Assembly (NCBI RefSeq): GCF_000183135.1
Contig: NC_014734.1
Coordinates: 1,612,001-1,676,000, forward strand
Direction of reading: 5' to 3'
Source of the DNA: Paludibacter propionicigenes WB4
GTDB lineage: Bacteria > Bacteroidota > Bacteroidia > Bacteroidales > Paludibacteraceae
DNA length: 64,000 bases
How positions within the stretch are numbered: the stretch's first letter is position 1; the number at the start of each line of letters is the position of its first letter. This document shows positions 19,287 to 30,529 of this stretch, piece after piece. The notes below the pieces were generated by a model, which was given only the letters and a program-made list of their open reading frames with translations, was not told where the DNA came from and ran no database searches. The position numbers and the translations under genes are program-made.

Positions 19287-20897
19287 TTAGTCTTTGAATT
19301 TTCTATAATCAATTCTAAACTTGTCTAGACGCAACCCCAAAATTCTTCGGGTTAATCCTAAATCATCTGCTGCTGCCGATACATTTCCTCTGTGATTTTC
19401 CAGTGCTTCTACAATCATTTCGTATTCTACAACCTCAAGTTTTGCAACTAATCCCTTTTTAAATTCTGTACTGATCTGCATTGCAGATTGAAGTGACAGA
19501 GGAAGATCGTAGGCATGAATAACATTATCATCGGACATAATAACAGCCCTTTCAATAACATTTTCTAATTCGCGAACATTACCCGGCCAGGAATAGGAAA
19601 GTAGTATTTCTTGTACCGTCGTTGAAATACGTTTTATTTCTTTATCAAACTTCTTGACAAAATGTGATACAAAATACTCGGCAAGAATTATAATGTCGCT
19701 GCTTCGTTCGCGCAGTGGCGGAATGAGTATTGGGAAAACATTCAAACGATAATACAAATCTTCTCTGAACGTTCCTTCTTTTACCATTTTAAACAAATCT
19801 CTGTTGGTGGCTGCGATAACCCGAATGTCTACTTTAATTGTGCTATTGCCACCTACCCGCTCGAAAGAGCGCTCTTGTAAAATTCTGAGCAGTTTTGCCT
19901 GCATGGGTAAAGACAGTTCACCGACTTCATCCATAAATATTGTACCTCCATTGGCATCTTCAAATCGACCTTTTCGTGTCTTATCTGCGCCGGTAAAAGA
20001 TCCCTTTTCGTGTCCGAAAAGCTCACTCTCAACCACACTCTCGGGCAAAGCTGCACAATTAAACTTTATAAATGGAGCACTGGCCTCGGGACTATTGTAA
20101 TGTATAGCACTGGCCACCAACTCCTTTCCCACTCCACTCTCGCCCAGAAGCAGCACAGTAGATTTAGTTTTCGATATTTTGTTGATCAATGAATATACTT
20201 CATGCATCGGCTTTGAATTACCGATGATGTTTGATGGATGGAATTTTTCTTTAAGTGCATCTTTAAGGCGCTCATTTTCTAATTTCAGAAAGGTACTTTC
20301 TTCATTATCAATGAGGTATAATTCTACTGCCTGAGCAATCATAGTTGCAATTATTCCCAGAATTTCTACATCATATCTTAGTAATTCCGGTTTATCGCAT
20401 ATTCTTTCCACACTGATAGCACCAAGAACTTTCTTGCCCAGTTTAATAGGAATACAAACAAAAGAAAGCTCTGCATCGGCAGGTGTCCTAAGACTTTTCG
20501 TCCTGTTCAGGAAATCGGGCTCATCGCCTATGCGGGGCACCACAACCACCTCACCTGTTTCTACGACTTTACCTGTTATGCCTTCACCAATAGAGTAAAC
20601 TCCTCTAATTTCTTCCTTTTCCGTTAGCCCAATGCTATCATGGATAAATATCTTGCCTGTCTTGCTATCGAACAGGTTTACCATACCTCTTACTACACCC
20701 ATATCTTCTTTCATTATTTTCAACAAAAGAGATAAGGTGTCTTTTAAGTTCTCATTCTCAATTACGATCTCACTCATGTGAAATAACGGAGTAAGCATTT
20801 CACCACGGCACTTAATTATATTGTCTAATTCTCTACCATGGCAATAATGGATAATTTGTTGTTCTCCTACTGATATTCTGATCTTTTGAGTGTTCAT
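19287..20897 (-). CDS. AnfA/NifA-type sigma-54-dependent activator
   Basis: A 536-residue enhancer-binding protein expected to switch on the neighbouring Fe-nitrogenase operon. Domain order: N-terminal tail with Cys19 and Cys30; GAF domain (about 45-195); AAA+ domain (about 222-450) with Walker A GESGVGKE (252-259), the sigma-54 contact loop GSFTGA (299-304, Ser in place of the common Ala) and Walker B FMDE (321-324); and a Fis-type helix-turn-helix (about 490-530, AADDLGLTRRILGLRLDKF). The linker between the AAA+ and DNA-binding domains has no CxxxxC motif, so direct oxygen sensing of the rhizobial NifA kind is unlikely. It follows the binding-protein gene by 121 bases. AnfA is favoured over NifA only from context. 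Confidence 0.88.
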   Translation of the reverse strand: MNTQKIRISVGEQQIIHYCHGRELDNIIKCRGEMLTPLFHMSEIVIENENLKDTLSLLLKIMKEDMGVVRGMVNLFDSKTGKIFIHDSIGLTEKEEIRGVYSIGEGITGKVVETGEVVVVPRIGDEPDFLNRTKSLRTPADAELSFVCIPIKLGKKVLGAISVERICDKPELLRYDVEILGIIATMIAQAVELYLIDNEESTFLKLENERLKDALKEKFHPSNIIGNSKPMHEVYSLINKISKTKSTVLLLGESGVGKELVASAIHYNSPEASAPFIKFNCAALPESVVESELFGHEKGSFTGADKTRKGRFEDANGGTIFMDEVGELSLPMQAKLLRILQERSFERVGGNSTIKVDIRVIAATNRDLFKMVKEGTFREDLYYRLNVFPILIPPLRERSSDIIILAEYFVSHFVKKFDKEIKRISTTVQEILLSYSWPGNVRELENVIERAVIMSDDNVIHAYDLPLSLQSAMQISTEFKKGLVAKLEVVEYEMIVEALENHRGNVSAAADDLGLTRRILGLRLDKFRIDYRKFKD

Positions 20898-21018
20898 TCT
20901 TATATCCCCTTCTTTGCTATTTGTTTTGAATCAATTATTACATCACAGGTAGCCCTGCAGTATGCATGTAAATTGGCTTTAAAATATTAGATATAGGGTT
21001 ATAGCAGTCACAAATTAT

Positions 21019-22155
21019 TTAAAGTCGCCTTCGGATATCTTCTTTCATGGCATGCATGTCACAATTTCGAATGAAGTCCCATCCTATCCAGTTCAGTTTT
21101 GATCCGGGGAAGTTGTTTTTTACTTTTGGATTGGTAGATACCAGACCATATTCCTCCATCATTTTTCCAACTTCTTCTCCCATGAGGAAACGGATCATTT
21201 CTTTATACTTATCATAAGCTCCTTTTCTTATCAATACCTGGATAGGCAATAAAATAGCACCGTCTACAGGCCAAATCAAATCGTAGTCTGTAGTATTCTG
21301 TATTCTTTTGGCATAGGAATAAGGCATTACATATACTGCTGCATTAATTTTATTTCCAGAATTAATGGTTGACAGCATTTCTTCGGGGTGAATCCGTAAT
21401 AAGGTATTTTTCGACAGCTGGTCAACAGCTTCGTATCCGTATTCCTTTACATAATGAGCAAAAACTGTATTGCAATGGAAATCTATGTCTCCGCAAAAAA
21501 CAATGCTATTCTTCAAAGCGGGGTTAAGCAGCTCATACCATTCCCGCGGTGGCTGGATGGTTTCGTATTTTGCTTTATTCACTACCATAACCATGGCTTC
21601 AGCACCGATAAAACCGAATATACGGGAAGCATAATTGATATTTGTACCGGAAAATATTGAGTGTGAGGCTTGATTGAAAGTCTCAAAATTCCTGTCGTTC
21701 AATAATCTACTGGTTCTGTGGTATATGCTGTTGACATCTGTTGTTATCAGAATTTCAGGAAACTGATTGGCCGACGACAGGGTTTCAATTTTATTATAAA
21801 AAACATTTTCGAGGTAAGTGCTTCCGGAAAAAAACACTGAGCCATGACCCTCTTCGGCATACTGGGGAAATTGCTCTGCAAATAATGATTTGAATGCAGC
21901 TTGAATGCTCACAGGCAGAATAGATACAAAGAATATTTTAGCTTTGTGCTTTTTCAACTGAGGCATATCATAACGTATGGTTTCCAGATTTATCTCCTTA
22001 TTGGACATAATCGGAAATGCAGAGTTACTGTTTAGTAAATCTTTAGTCAGACTTGTTTCTACGTTGCCCGGCTTCTGCGCTAAATCTCCAAATGGAATAG
22101 CCTCAATTATCTCATCCTTTACGGAGGATATTTCGTACTTCTTTTGTTTCTTCAT
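21019..22155 (-). CDS. Substrate-binding-protein homologue without signal peptide
   Basis: A 378-residue protein with the fold pattern of periplasmic type-2 binding proteins of ABC transporters (AfuA-like: GTNINYASRIFGFIGAEAMV, PREWYELLNPALKNSIVFCG, then FHCNTVFAHYVKEYGYEAVD). It lacks any signal peptide: the N-terminus is charged (MKKQKKYEISSVKDEIIEA) and followed by a 70-residue extension. No permease or ATPase gene is adjacent. It is placed between anfO and the activator, behind a candidate sigma-54 promoter, which suggests a cytoplasmic ligand sensor or metal/anion carrier for the nitrogenase system. The ligand is unknown; a metal or oxyanion is a guess. Confidence 0.65.
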   Translation of the reverse strand: MKKQKKYEISSVKDEIIEAIPFGDLAQKPGNVETSLTKDLLNSNSAFPIMSNKEINLETIRYDMPQLKKHKAKIFFVSILPVSIQAAFKSLFAEQFPQYAEEGHGSVFFSGSTYLENVFYNKIETLSSANQFPEILITTDVNSIYHRTSRLLNDRNFETFNQASHSIFSGTNINYASRIFGFIGAEAMVMVVNKAKYETIQPPREWYELLNPALKNSIVFCGDIDFHCNTVFAHYVKEYGYEAVDQLSKNTLLRIHPEEMLSTINSGNKINAAVYVMPYSYAKRIQNTTDYDLIWPVDGAILLPIQVLIRKGAYDKYKEMIRFLMGEEVGKMMEEYGLVSTNPKVKNNFPGSKLNWIGWDFIRNCDMHAMKEDIRRRL

Positions 22156-22283
22156 AACTCAAACCTTTTCAAAAAAAACACCTATAATAAAAGCAATCTT
22201 ACGTTATACATAAAAAAGAATATCGCTATTGATAAAAAAAAGACAATTTGCTATATAATAGCTAATTGTTATTTTAAAATTCG

Positions 22284-29341: not shown

Positions 29342-29659
29342 TTAGAGTTCTTTCGATCCGGTTCTCACTGTCAGACTACTATCTACAGGAGAGATGAAAA
29401 TTTTTCCATCACCCTCGCTTCCTGTGTAGGCTTTATATTGAATAACTTTCAGCACTTCGTCTACCGATTTATCTTCAGCCACGATGATAATAAGCATCTT
29501 TGGTAATTCGTCGTAGTGAGTGTTTCCAACCGTTAATCCTTTTTGTTTACCTCTACCGAAAACAGGCATCTTTGTAAGTGAATAAAAACCTGCTTCTGCT
29601 AAACCTTCCGTCACGTTGTCCGCCATTTCCGGGCGAACAATTGCTCTAATCATTTTCAT
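29342..29659 (-). CDS. nifI1: NifI1, PII-like nitrogenase regulator
   Basis: A 105-residue GlnB-family protein of the NifI1 type: MKMIRAIVRPEMADNVTEGL, the T-loop region MPVFGRGKQKGLTVGNTHYD, and YTGSEGDGKIFISPVDSSL, then VRTG. It partners NifI2, encoded 12 bases downstream. The pair between the reductase and dinitrogenase genes is the arrangement of archaea and anaerobic bacteria, and differs from the DraT/DraG control of proteobacterial Fe nitrogenases. Confidence 0.96.
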   Translation of the reverse strand: MKMIRAIVRPEMADNVTEGLAEAGFYSLTKMPVFGRGKQKGLTVGNTHYDELPKMLIIIVAEDKSVDEVLKVIQYKAYTGSEGDGKIFISPVDSSLTVRTGSKEL

Positions 29660-29704
29660 ATTGTTATGTTTTTATGAATTTAAAACAAGATTGATTTATT
29701 GAAA

Positions 29705-30529
29705 TTATTCGGCAATACCATATTTCACTACCATGGCTTCAAGCTCCGGCATTGTAAGGGGTTTAGGTACTACAAAATTATCGTTGGCTATAATTTTTCT
29801 GGCCAATTCACTGTACTCATGAGCCTGATTACATTTTTCATCATACTCAATAACAGTTTTCTTGTTAAACTCTGCTTTTTGAACAATATTATCACGTGGT
29901 ACAAAGTGTATCATTTGAGTGCCTATGGCCGTTGCAAATTCTTCAATAAACTCACGTTCTTTGTCTACTTTACGACTGTTACAAACGAGTCCGCCCAAGC
30001 GTACACCACTTTGCTTAGCATATTTCACCAACCCCTTGCAAATATTGTTGGCAGCATACACGGCCATCATTTCGCCGGAAACCACAATGTATACTTCCTG
30101 AGCTTTACCATCGCGAATAGGCATGGCAAAACCACCGCAAACAACGTCACCTAAAACATCGTAGAAAACGTAGTTTAGTTCAGGAGTATAAGCTCCCTGA
30201 GCTTCCATCAAATCGATAGCAGTTATTACACCACGTCCGGCGCATCCTACACCCGGCTCCGGTCCACCTGACTCGGTACACTTAATTCCGCCAAATCCTG
30301 AACTTACAACTTTGTCGACAGTTACTAACTCTGCACCATCGTCGCGCAGTGTATCCATAATAGTTTTCTGATTCATACCGCCCAAAATCATACGGGTCGA
30401 GTCGGCTTTTGGATCGCAGCCGTGAATAAATACTTTTTGATCATGAAAGTAAGCCATTGCGGCCGCTGTGTTCTGTTGGGTGGTAGACTTTCCGATTCCA
30501 CCTTTTCCATAAAAAGCAATCTTTTTCAT
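29705..30529 (-). CDS. anfH: AnfH, Fe-only nitrogenase reductase (Fe protein)
   Basis: The ATP-driven electron donor to AnfDGK. 274 residues: Walker A GKGGIGKS (8-15), switch region [14 protein letters not shown], 4Fe-4S ligands Cys96 and Cys131, and Arg99 (GCAGRGV), the site that DraT ADP-ribosylates in other bacteria. [20 protein letters not shown] and the C-terminus [19 protein letters not shown] match AnfH better than NifH. First gene of the operon, behind a candidate sigma-54 promoter about 60 bases upstream. Confidence 0.96.

Follow-up and report, generated by a model that had tools for sequence, protein, structure and literature searches.

A HEPN-fold protein possibly replacing AnfR in the Fe-only nitrogenase operon of Paludibacter propionicigenes WB4T

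Results

Organization and identity of the anf operon

The genome of the rice-field bacterium Paludibacter propionicigenes WB4T consists of one contig of 3,685,504 bp, of which a stretch of 64,000 nucleotides (hereafter designated the window; NC_014734.1, positions 1,612,001 to 1,676,000) was analyzed. Window positions 19287–30529 carry the following genes, all intact and on the same strand.

29705..30529, minus strand: anfH, nitrogenase iron protein (TIGR01287, 452.5 bits, cut-off 394.35; Pfam Fer4_NifH)
29342..29659, minus strand: nifI1, P-II-like (P-II models, E 6e-17, under curated cut-offs), between anfH and anfD
28958..29329, minus strand: nifI2, P-II-like (P-II models, E 1.5e-15, under cut-off)
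27310..28932, minus strand: anfD, FeFe protein alpha subunit (TIGR01861, 995 bits, cut-off 873.8; ligands invariant; Anf clade)
26935..27291, minus strand: anfG, delta subunit (TIGR02929, 154.5 bits, cut-off 124.7)
25411..26802, minus strand: anfK, FeFe protein beta subunit (TIGR02931, 879.6 bits, cut-off 853.85)
24848..25291, minus strand: predicted HEPN-fold protein, directly 3' of anfK (AF2 pLDDT 86.5; Foldseek top matches HEPN)
24339..24809, minus strand: split-barrel protein (Pyridox_ox_2), Anf3-like (Pfam PF12900, 82.6 bits)
23537..24226, minus strand: anfO copy 1, C-x-H motif kept (CTHLPKW; Pfam AnfO_nitrog, 185 bits)
22691..23440, minus strand: anfO copy 2, with Gln in place of the His (CRQSPKW; Pfam AnfO_nitrog, 142 bits)
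21019..22155, minus strand: SBP_bac_6 homologue without evident signal peptide, as judged by reading of its N-terminal sequence (Pfam PF13343, 141 bits)
19287..20897, minus strand: sigma-54 activator of the NifA/AnfA type with GAF, AAA, and Fis domains (Pfam; best NCBIfam model nifA, 490.7 bits, below the cut-off of 528.85)

The two P-II-like genes between anfH and anfD are presumably nifI genes and are so named here. All the accessory genes listed in the initial annotation (nifI1/nifI2, two anfO, HEPN-like, split-barrel, and binding-protein genes) are present. For the HEPN gene, the ATG at 25291, with AGGAG upstream, is a likelier start than the TTG at 25336. A PDB sequence search with the SBP homologue gave no match, and its structure model (pLDDT 56) was dropped as evidence.

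The assignment to an Fe-only nitrogenase rather than NifDK was borne out, as AnfD, AnfG, and AnfK all score above the NCBIfam Anf equivalog cut-offs, whereas the VnfD, VnfG, VnfK, NifD, and NifK equivalog models all stay under their own cut-offs on the window proteins. The P-cluster residues Cys49, Cys75, and Cys138 and the cofactor ligands Cys257 and His423 proposed for AnfD are invariant in an alignment of seven AnfD sequences, and Cys20, Cys45, and Cys104 of AnfK align with the solved Fe-nitrogenases 8boq_B and 8oie_C. Moreover, the tree placement named beforehand as a check put AnfD within the Anf clade and separated it from VnfD, with SH-aLRT values of 98 and 100 in two trees, both containing two Nostoc VnfD as outgroups and the former also the NifD of the genome itself.

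The species was already listed among those with Vnf and/or Anf (Dos Santos 2012, PMC3464626), and anfHDGK with two glnB genes has been described in WB4T, 49 kb from nifHDKENB (Inoue 2015, PMC4356463). Since the alternative nitrogenase was thus reported in 2012 and its cluster described in 2015, the main claim is not new; these reports rule out anf in Bacteroidota as a novelty, which the initial annotation had implied. Judging from its sequence, the window cluster is very probably this published Fe-only nitrogenase, in identity and as a working enzyme.

Distribution of anf and its accessory genes

Anf occurs in 10 of 394 other genomes drawn from GTDB Bacteroidota; the one matched to a named record (L012, presumably the same as L084) belongs to Chlorobiaceae. 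In a contig scan, 13 loci among the best 80 of 195 confirmed matches grouped with the window in a single clade; 12 carry the names of Bacteroidales taxa in their titles, and the remaining one is titled just 'Bacteroidetes bacterium'. The 13 loci rule out WB4T as the sole Bacteroidales genome with anf; among the genomes then at hand, the parts of Inoue 2015 (PMC4356463) covered here report no second one. Nearest to the Bacteroidales AnfD is that of Pectinatus (SH-aLRT 83 and 94 in two trees). A Chlorobiota origin of the Bacteroidales operon was ruled out, the two being separate on the AnfD trees.

Accessory genes were counted in 70 complete anf loci, that is, the best 80 of the 195 confirmed AnfD matches, minus 11 with a short flank or no anfG found, plus the window; because only the best 80 were kept, this sample leans towards the AnfD of the window. 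The split-barrel gene is found in 60 of the 70 loci, AnfO in 44, HEPN in 42 (one, L042, being a 24-bit fragment), and nifI (P-II homologues) in 30. HEPN, split barrel, and AnfO occur together in 28 loci, 11 of which also bear nifI: nine from Bacteroidales, including the window, and L071 and L098 from Chromatiaceae. The genes that the initial annotation had not seen described together are, for the most part, the usual anf accessory set, and the unusual members are only the second AnfO (2/70) and the SBP (5/70).

Cofactor supply and expression

The separate nif cluster, 49 kb from anf, contains nifB (the single copy in the genome), nifEN, and a nifV-like gene. Its NifH, NifD, NifK, NifE, and NifB pass their cut-offs, NifK barely (427.7 versus 427.3); NifN is below its own (295.3 versus 326.8), as is the nifV-like gene (best model nifV_homocitr, 434.1 versus an equivalog cut-off of 462.9). 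Presumably, NifB and NifV supply NifB-co and homocitrate, respectively, to both nitrogenases, and the last steps of FeFe-cofactor synthesis would take place within AnfDK, as has been reported in Azotobacter. The sigma-54 activator would turn the anf operon on, and NifI1/NifI2 would shut the enzyme down in the presence of fixed nitrogen. In R. capsulatus, anf is activated by AnfA (PMC6925177).

Upstream of anfH, no convincing sigma-54 promoter was found (best, 6 of 13 positions), and with 21 TGT-N10-ACA sites in the window, the single one upstream of anfH means little; the promoter scan was dropped as evidence. The lack of a clear promoter would fit a cluster that is intact but cryptic, WB4T using its Mo-nitrogenase and expressing the anf operon rarely or never. 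The acetylene tests of Inoue 2015 (PMC4356463) were carried out in Mo-containing medium and thus do not show Anf at work, and an even draw of the order of the window gave AnfD in one of 393 genomes, the window's own, and in none besides. On the other hand, no reading frame or ligand is disrupted, as much of the operon as the contigs cover is conserved in the 13 kin loci, and Inoue 2015 (PMC4356463) refers to anf genes from termite guts, closely related to these, that are preferentially transcribed. A cryptic cluster is considered unlikely, and the Fe-only nitrogenase of WB4T, as read from its genes, is most likely functional.

HEPN-fold protein encoded next to anfK

Foldseek searches with the predicted structure of the protein encoded after anfK gave six best PDB matches with a probability of 1.00 each, five of them titled HEPN and the sixth (1ufb) naming no family in its title; the best E value was 0.0075, and none reached 0.001. 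Ranks 7–9 were toxin-antitoxin pairs, one of which names MntA-HepT in its title and the others of which we take to be of the same kind. The window protein has no Pfam match at E ≤ 0.01, to HEPN or to a GGACT/AIG2-type family. Its orthologue at L034 scores 20.8 bits with Pfam HEPN against a gathering score of 22, and four of five HEPN proteins tested match this model, all below gathering. The structural model thus points to a HEPN fold.

HepT-type toxin-antitoxin structures among the weaker matches might indicate that the gene is a remnant of a toxin-antitoxin system or RNase, accompanying anf by chance and playing no role in nitrogenase. However, the window protein lacks the RX4-6H motif (present somewhere in 12 of 24 HEPN rows and at a common place in at most seven), and no nucleotidyltransferase that could serve as antitoxin lies beside the gene, which is flanked by anfK and the split-barrel gene. 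Moreover, 48 of 84 complete anf loci include HEPN, and nifD is present in each of the nine further genomes with HEPN among 295 drawn from the order, as counted from the HEPN-bearing side. HEPN relatives were also found in nif-bearing Bacteroidales without anf. A chance companion is judged very unlikely.

HEPN and GGACT-like genes in anf loci

The set of 84 comprises the 70 loci above and 14 of 22 further regions, six being dropped as duplicates, recognized by contigs of equal length, and two being too short (L176, with neither HEPN nor GGACT, and L182, with HEPN). HEPN is present in 48 loci, a GGACT (gamma-glutamylcyclotransferase-like) gene in 27, both in none, and neither in nine. The GGACT-like gene is probably anfR, with which it is equated by synteny alone; anfR is called a gene of unknown function (PMC6579470), and diazotrophic growth is poor without it (PMC9310841). 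At L100, the only AnfD-bearing genome among 220 searched in the order around it, the arrangement anfO-HEPN-split barrel has the same slot order as anf1 (anfO)-anf2 (anfR)-anf3 of R. capsulatus (PMC6579470). In the order of Magnetospirillum fulvum, anfO is followed by GGACT in L177–L180, with frame starts 1966–2587 bases after the anfD frame, and by HEPN in L181–L182, at 2476 and 2497 bases.

In whole-genome checks of 25 hand-chosen loci, HEPN was absent from all 10 genomes with GGACT in the anf locus, and one of the 15 with HEPN in the locus contained GGACT; Sporomusa L080 has both families in its genome, GGACT lying far from the anf locus. The genome of the window has no GGACT match at E ≤ 1, the same query matching in 11 of the 25 genomes.

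It is quite possible, at slightly less than an even chance, that the two proteins differ in function and that their exclusion mirrors only the lineages of anf operons. Indeed, the two labels are strongly clustered on the AnfD tree, with 9 and 8 changes versus shuffled means of 27.4 and 22.9, nine of the 84 loci have neither gene, and one genome, that of Sporomusa, holds both families. With kinship allowed for, the exclusivity is not significant; the test has three or four independent pairs on strongly supported branches, too few for p < 0.05, and lacks power. In contrast, HEPN and GGACT are each found in the class to which Sporomusa belongs and in the order of Magnetospirillum, in the latter in the same slot, and not one of the 84 loci has both. 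Replacement of AnfR by the HEPN protein as a maturation factor of the apo-FeFe protein is tentatively proposed from these gene arrangements.

Split-barrel and AnfO proteins

The second-best PDB match of the split-barrel protein is 6rk0 (E 2.4e-7), which we take to be Anf3 of A. vinelandii, 2hti being the better match. One histidine, a candidate heme ligand, is common to all 70 split-barrel rows, the 6rk0 fragment included. The protein may be related to Anf3, a flavocytochrome that protects against oxygen.

Both AnfO proteins exceed the Pfam AnfO_nitrog gathering score of 30.3 and are under the NCBIfam AnfO cut-off (128.0 and 104.9 versus 129.15). The C-x-H histidine, a putative cofactor ligand, retained in 45 of 50 AnfO rows and in AnfO1 but not AnfO2, was matched by motif, without an A. 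vinelandii row in the alignment, to His203 of A. vinelandii AnfO, the substitution of which inactivates the protein (PMC11938142). Because AnfO2 has Gln in its place, it can act like AnfO only in part, and a decaying duplicate without function is conceivable, if somewhat less than probable. However, in the two loci with a second AnfO (the window and L021), the reading frame is intact, and the Cys and the remaining AnfO sequence are kept, His being lost to different residues (Gln and Leu, respectively). In one related MAG of a sister lineage, AnfO is fused to NifB-NifX.

As the cell can also make FeMo-cofactor, AnfO1 would, following the AnfO mechanism described in PMC11938142, dock on apo-AnfDK and capture stray FeMo-cofactor, thereby keeping it out; the His-less AnfO2 would dock without holding the cofactor.

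Discussion

The anf cluster itself confirms published work, and the new handle lies in its accessory layer. We propose, with reservation, that the HEPN-fold family is devoted to nitrogenase maturation and replaces the unrelated AnfR in many anf operons, including that of the window, that its relatives serve Mo-nitrogenase in Bacteroidales, and that, together with the His-less AnfO2 and the AnfO-NifB-NifX fusion, it marks an alternative maturation pathway of the apo-FeFe protein. HEPN in AnfR's place, never sharing an examined locus with it, makes two unrelated proteins testable in one assay, and the His loss of AnfO2 and the AnfO-NifB fusion are natural variants that make the AnfO cofactor-sorting model directly testable. 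Three details may be new, namely HEPN in the place of the GGACT-like gene, the His-less AnfO2, and the AnfO-NifB-NifX fusion. Our literature searches found no paper pairing HEPN with AnfO, or joining nitrogenase, gamma-glutamylcyclotransferase, and anf, though the HEPN/anfR pattern may already have been published.

The window shares with the published WB4T anf cluster the organism, anfHDGK, the pair of glnB genes that separates anfH from anfD, and the distance of 49 kb from nifHDKENB; HEPN, split barrel, AnfO, and SBP are not mentioned in the parts of that account covered here (PMC4356463). With the HEPN domain family PF05168, the protein after anfK shares its predicted fold and structural matches, but the four of five tested proteins of its kind that match the Pfam model score below gathering, no RNase motif runs through them as a family, and there is no MNT partner. 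The anfHDGK-anfO-anfR-anf3 arrangement of Azotobacter vinelandii and Rhodobacter capsulatus, as far as described in the parts of PMC9310841 and PMC6579470 covered, has in common with the window the structural genes, AnfO, an Anf3-like split barrel, and a sigma-54 activator, whereas the window differs in HEPN where the GGACT-like anfR is placed, in two AnfO, and in nifI inside the operon. The anf loci of Paenibacillaceae, Enterobacterales, Pectinatus, and Chromatiaceae also have HEPN shortly after anfK, many of them with the split barrel and AnfO as well.

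Organization and identity of the anf cluster

The anf cluster follows closely on a tRNA-Pro gene:

30895-30971, tRNA-Pro gene
30529-19287, minus strand, anf cluster (anfH end to sigma-54 activator end)

Its gene order is anfH, nifI1, nifI2, anfD, anfG, anfK, HEPN (encoding a HEPN-fold protein), a split-barrel gene (Pyridox_ox_2, Anf3-like), anfO1, anfO2, and, after a 535-bp gap, a gene for an SBP_bac_6 (SBP) homologue and the activator gene. In profile searches, AnfD, AnfG, and AnfK surpassed the curated Anf cut-offs, and the equivalog models for VnfD, VnfG, VnfK, NifD, and NifK scored the window proteins under their own cut-offs. 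The AnfD ligands named in the initial annotation (Cys49, Cys75, Cys138, Cys257, and His423) proved invariant across seven AnfD sequences, and the AnfK residues that it named (Cys20, Cys45, and Cys104) aligned with 8boq_B and 8oie_C. Published work describes anf activation by AnfA (PMC6925177) and Anf3 as an oxidase (PMC6579470). The NifI proteins of the window would control the Fe-only nitrogenase. Read by eye, the first 60 residues of the SBP homologue contain no hydrophobic leader; the relative of this protein in Pelosinus (L054) begins with DUF1858 instead.

Accessory genes of anf loci

Accessory genes were counted in 81 loci, namely the best 80 of 195 matches from an AnfD search of genome contigs plus the window, 70 of which (complete loci) have at least 4.5 kb downstream of anfG. 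Among these 70, the split barrel was present in 60, AnfO in 44, HEPN in 42, nifI in 30, a gamma-glutamylcyclotransferase-like (GGACT-like) gene in 20, SBP in 5, and two AnfO copies in 2. HEPN, split barrel, and AnfO occurred jointly in 28 loci, and together with nifI in 11, nine being Bacteroidales. Thus, the gene set that had at first seemed unfamiliar as a combination is common, and the rare parts of the window's set are the second AnfO and SBP.

The split barrels of Bacteroidales fall into a Nim-like subtype (window 24339-24809, L021, and L033) and an MRRKxREI-type (L022 and L024), and the profile scores of the remaining kin loci divide likewise. A class-I glutamine amidotransferase-like gene lies within the anf locus of some Clostridia and Negativicutes (clostridial L036, L040, L041, L042, L075, and others; Pfam GATase was tested on L040), accompanying HEPN in 8, the GGACT-like gene in 3, and neither in 5 of the 70 loci. 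The L040 locus also encodes one protein with a MORN_2 match below threshold. NifB-like proteins are encoded directly after anfK at L037:13403-14656 (177 bits to NifB) and L075:13499-14725 (172 bits), and their radical-SAM cysteine region appears, by eye, altered.

HEPN and the GGACT-like gene

Instead of HEPN, a GGACT/AIG2-like gene is found in many loci of Alphaproteobacteria, Desulfovibrionaceae, Geobacteraceae, and Pelosinus, and in single loci of Acidobacteriota, Spirochaetota, and Verrucomicrobiota; PF13772 scored above gathering in all three tested. In L061, L072, L074, L079, L092, and L099 it sits between anfO and the split-barrel gene, the same slot order as that reported for Rhodobacter capsulatus anf1 (anfO homologue), anf2 (anfR homologue), and anf3 (PMC6579470), so that by synteny alone the gene may be equated with anfR. 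HEPN might then act as a maturation factor in place of AnfR.

When 14 new loci were added to the 70, the resulting 84 complete loci comprised 48 with HEPN, 27 with GGACT, none with both, and 9 with neither. Within the order of Magnetospirillum fulvum, the gene after anfO is GGACT in L177-L180 and HEPN in L181 and L182, the last being too short for inclusion in the 84-locus count. At the whole-genome level, HEPN was found in 15/15 HEPN-locus and 0/10 GGACT-locus genomes, and GGACT in 1/15 and 10/10, respectively. The raw Fisher p for HEPN versus GGACT, which ignores relatedness, is 1.9e-11. On the AnfD tree, the HEPN and GGACT labels require at least nine and at least eight changes, and relatedness may still account for the exclusion, because just four independent pairs are well supported.

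The predicted fold of the HEPN protein (24 sequences) had a pLDDT of 86.5 and a pTM of 0.79. Foldseek with this model gave no match at E<=0.001; each of the top six hits had a probability of 1.00, five being titled HEPN and the sixth, 1ufb, bearing no family in its title. Pfam HEPN scores (gathering, 22) were 20.8 for L034, 16.1 for L058, 19.3 for L100, and 14.1 for L044. The RX4-6H motif was not found in the window HEPN protein; it occurs somewhere in 12 of 24 HEPN sequences and at a common position in 7 at most.

AnfO copies and nifB

AnfO is reported to sort cofactors, its N domain binding the apo-FeFe protein and its C domain the FeMo- and FeV-cofactors, with His203 essential (PMC11938142). 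Among 50 AnfO sequences of at least 90 bits, the C-x-H histidine is present in 45; L027 and L057 stop before it, and it is replaced in window AnfO2 (Gln), the second copy of L021 (Leu), and L074 (Glu). Given the Gln replacement, AnfO2 probably docks without capturing cofactor, or is decaying.

In a Paludibacteraceae MAG (L022:14597-16540), AnfO, NifB, and a NifX-type domain share one 648-codon open frame, scoring 132.9 with the AnfO model TIGR02940 (curated cut-off, 129.15), 425.0 with the NifB model TIGR01290 (343.65), and 54.6 with Pfam Nitro_FeMo-Co (26.3). This fusion, a single case from a MAG, physically links AnfO to the supplier of NifB-co. Besides L022, nifB lies downstream of anfO in 7 of 12 kin loci, several of the others ending early. 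The window has no nifB downstream of anfO and must rely on the genome's one nifB, in the nif cluster.

Distribution and comparison with known systems

Thirteen loci among the best 80 of 195 matches (L021-L033) fall in the window's AnfD clade; the record titles of 12 name Bacteroidales taxa and that of the remaining one just Bacteroidetes. In AnfD trees, Bacteroidales form a single clade (support, 100), adjacent to Pectinatus (83 in one tree and 94 in the other) and away from Chlorobiota. When the order was drawn evenly, AnfD turned up in 1 of 393 genomes, the window's own, and in a draw of the phylum it did so in 11 of 395, the window's own counted; one of the other ten (L012) is on the same contig as L084, of Chlorobiaceae.

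From the order, 295 genomes were sampled for HEPN, which was found in 10. In the even draw, the nine other than the window's gave no AnfD match; nifD was present in 9/9, a count that runs over HEPN-bearing genomes only, and nif genes lay within the stretch around HEPN in 6/9.

The window's genome, that of Paludibacter propionicigenes WB4T, carries a second nitrogenase, a nif cluster 49 kb from the anf cluster, with nifH, two P-II-like genes, nifD, nifK, nifE, nifN, nifB, a ferredoxin-like gene, nifV, and a HEPN relative; the P-II-like and ferredoxin-like genes were named by reading the sequence. NifH, NifD, NifK, NifE, and NifB scored above the curated cut-offs, and NifN and NifV below. The HEPN relative (L008:13986-14435), directly after nifV, is 23% identical to the HEPN protein of the anf cluster (E 3e-8) and gave no Pfam HEPN score. 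Between nifK and nifE lies a minisatellite (L008:7328-7648) with a 21/42/63-base period, amounting to roughly 15 copies of 21 bases; it is open in three of the frames listed.

Inoue 2015 (PMC4356463) reports anf solely in WB4T, yet the Dysgonomonas capnocytophagoides genome (accession AUFL) was examined there too; we find an anf locus in D. capnocytophagoides DSM 22835 (L024), with an AnfD 84% identical. That source also gives anfHDGK with two glnB genes and the 49-kb distance for WB4T, and Dos Santos 2012 (PMC3464626) places Paludibacter propionicigenes among species holding Vnf and/or Anf. Since the organization given by Inoue 2015 agrees with that found here, and the species had been listed in 2012, the main finding was already known: the anf cluster is a known system, ordinary as a cluster, whose accessory-gene pattern deserves testing.
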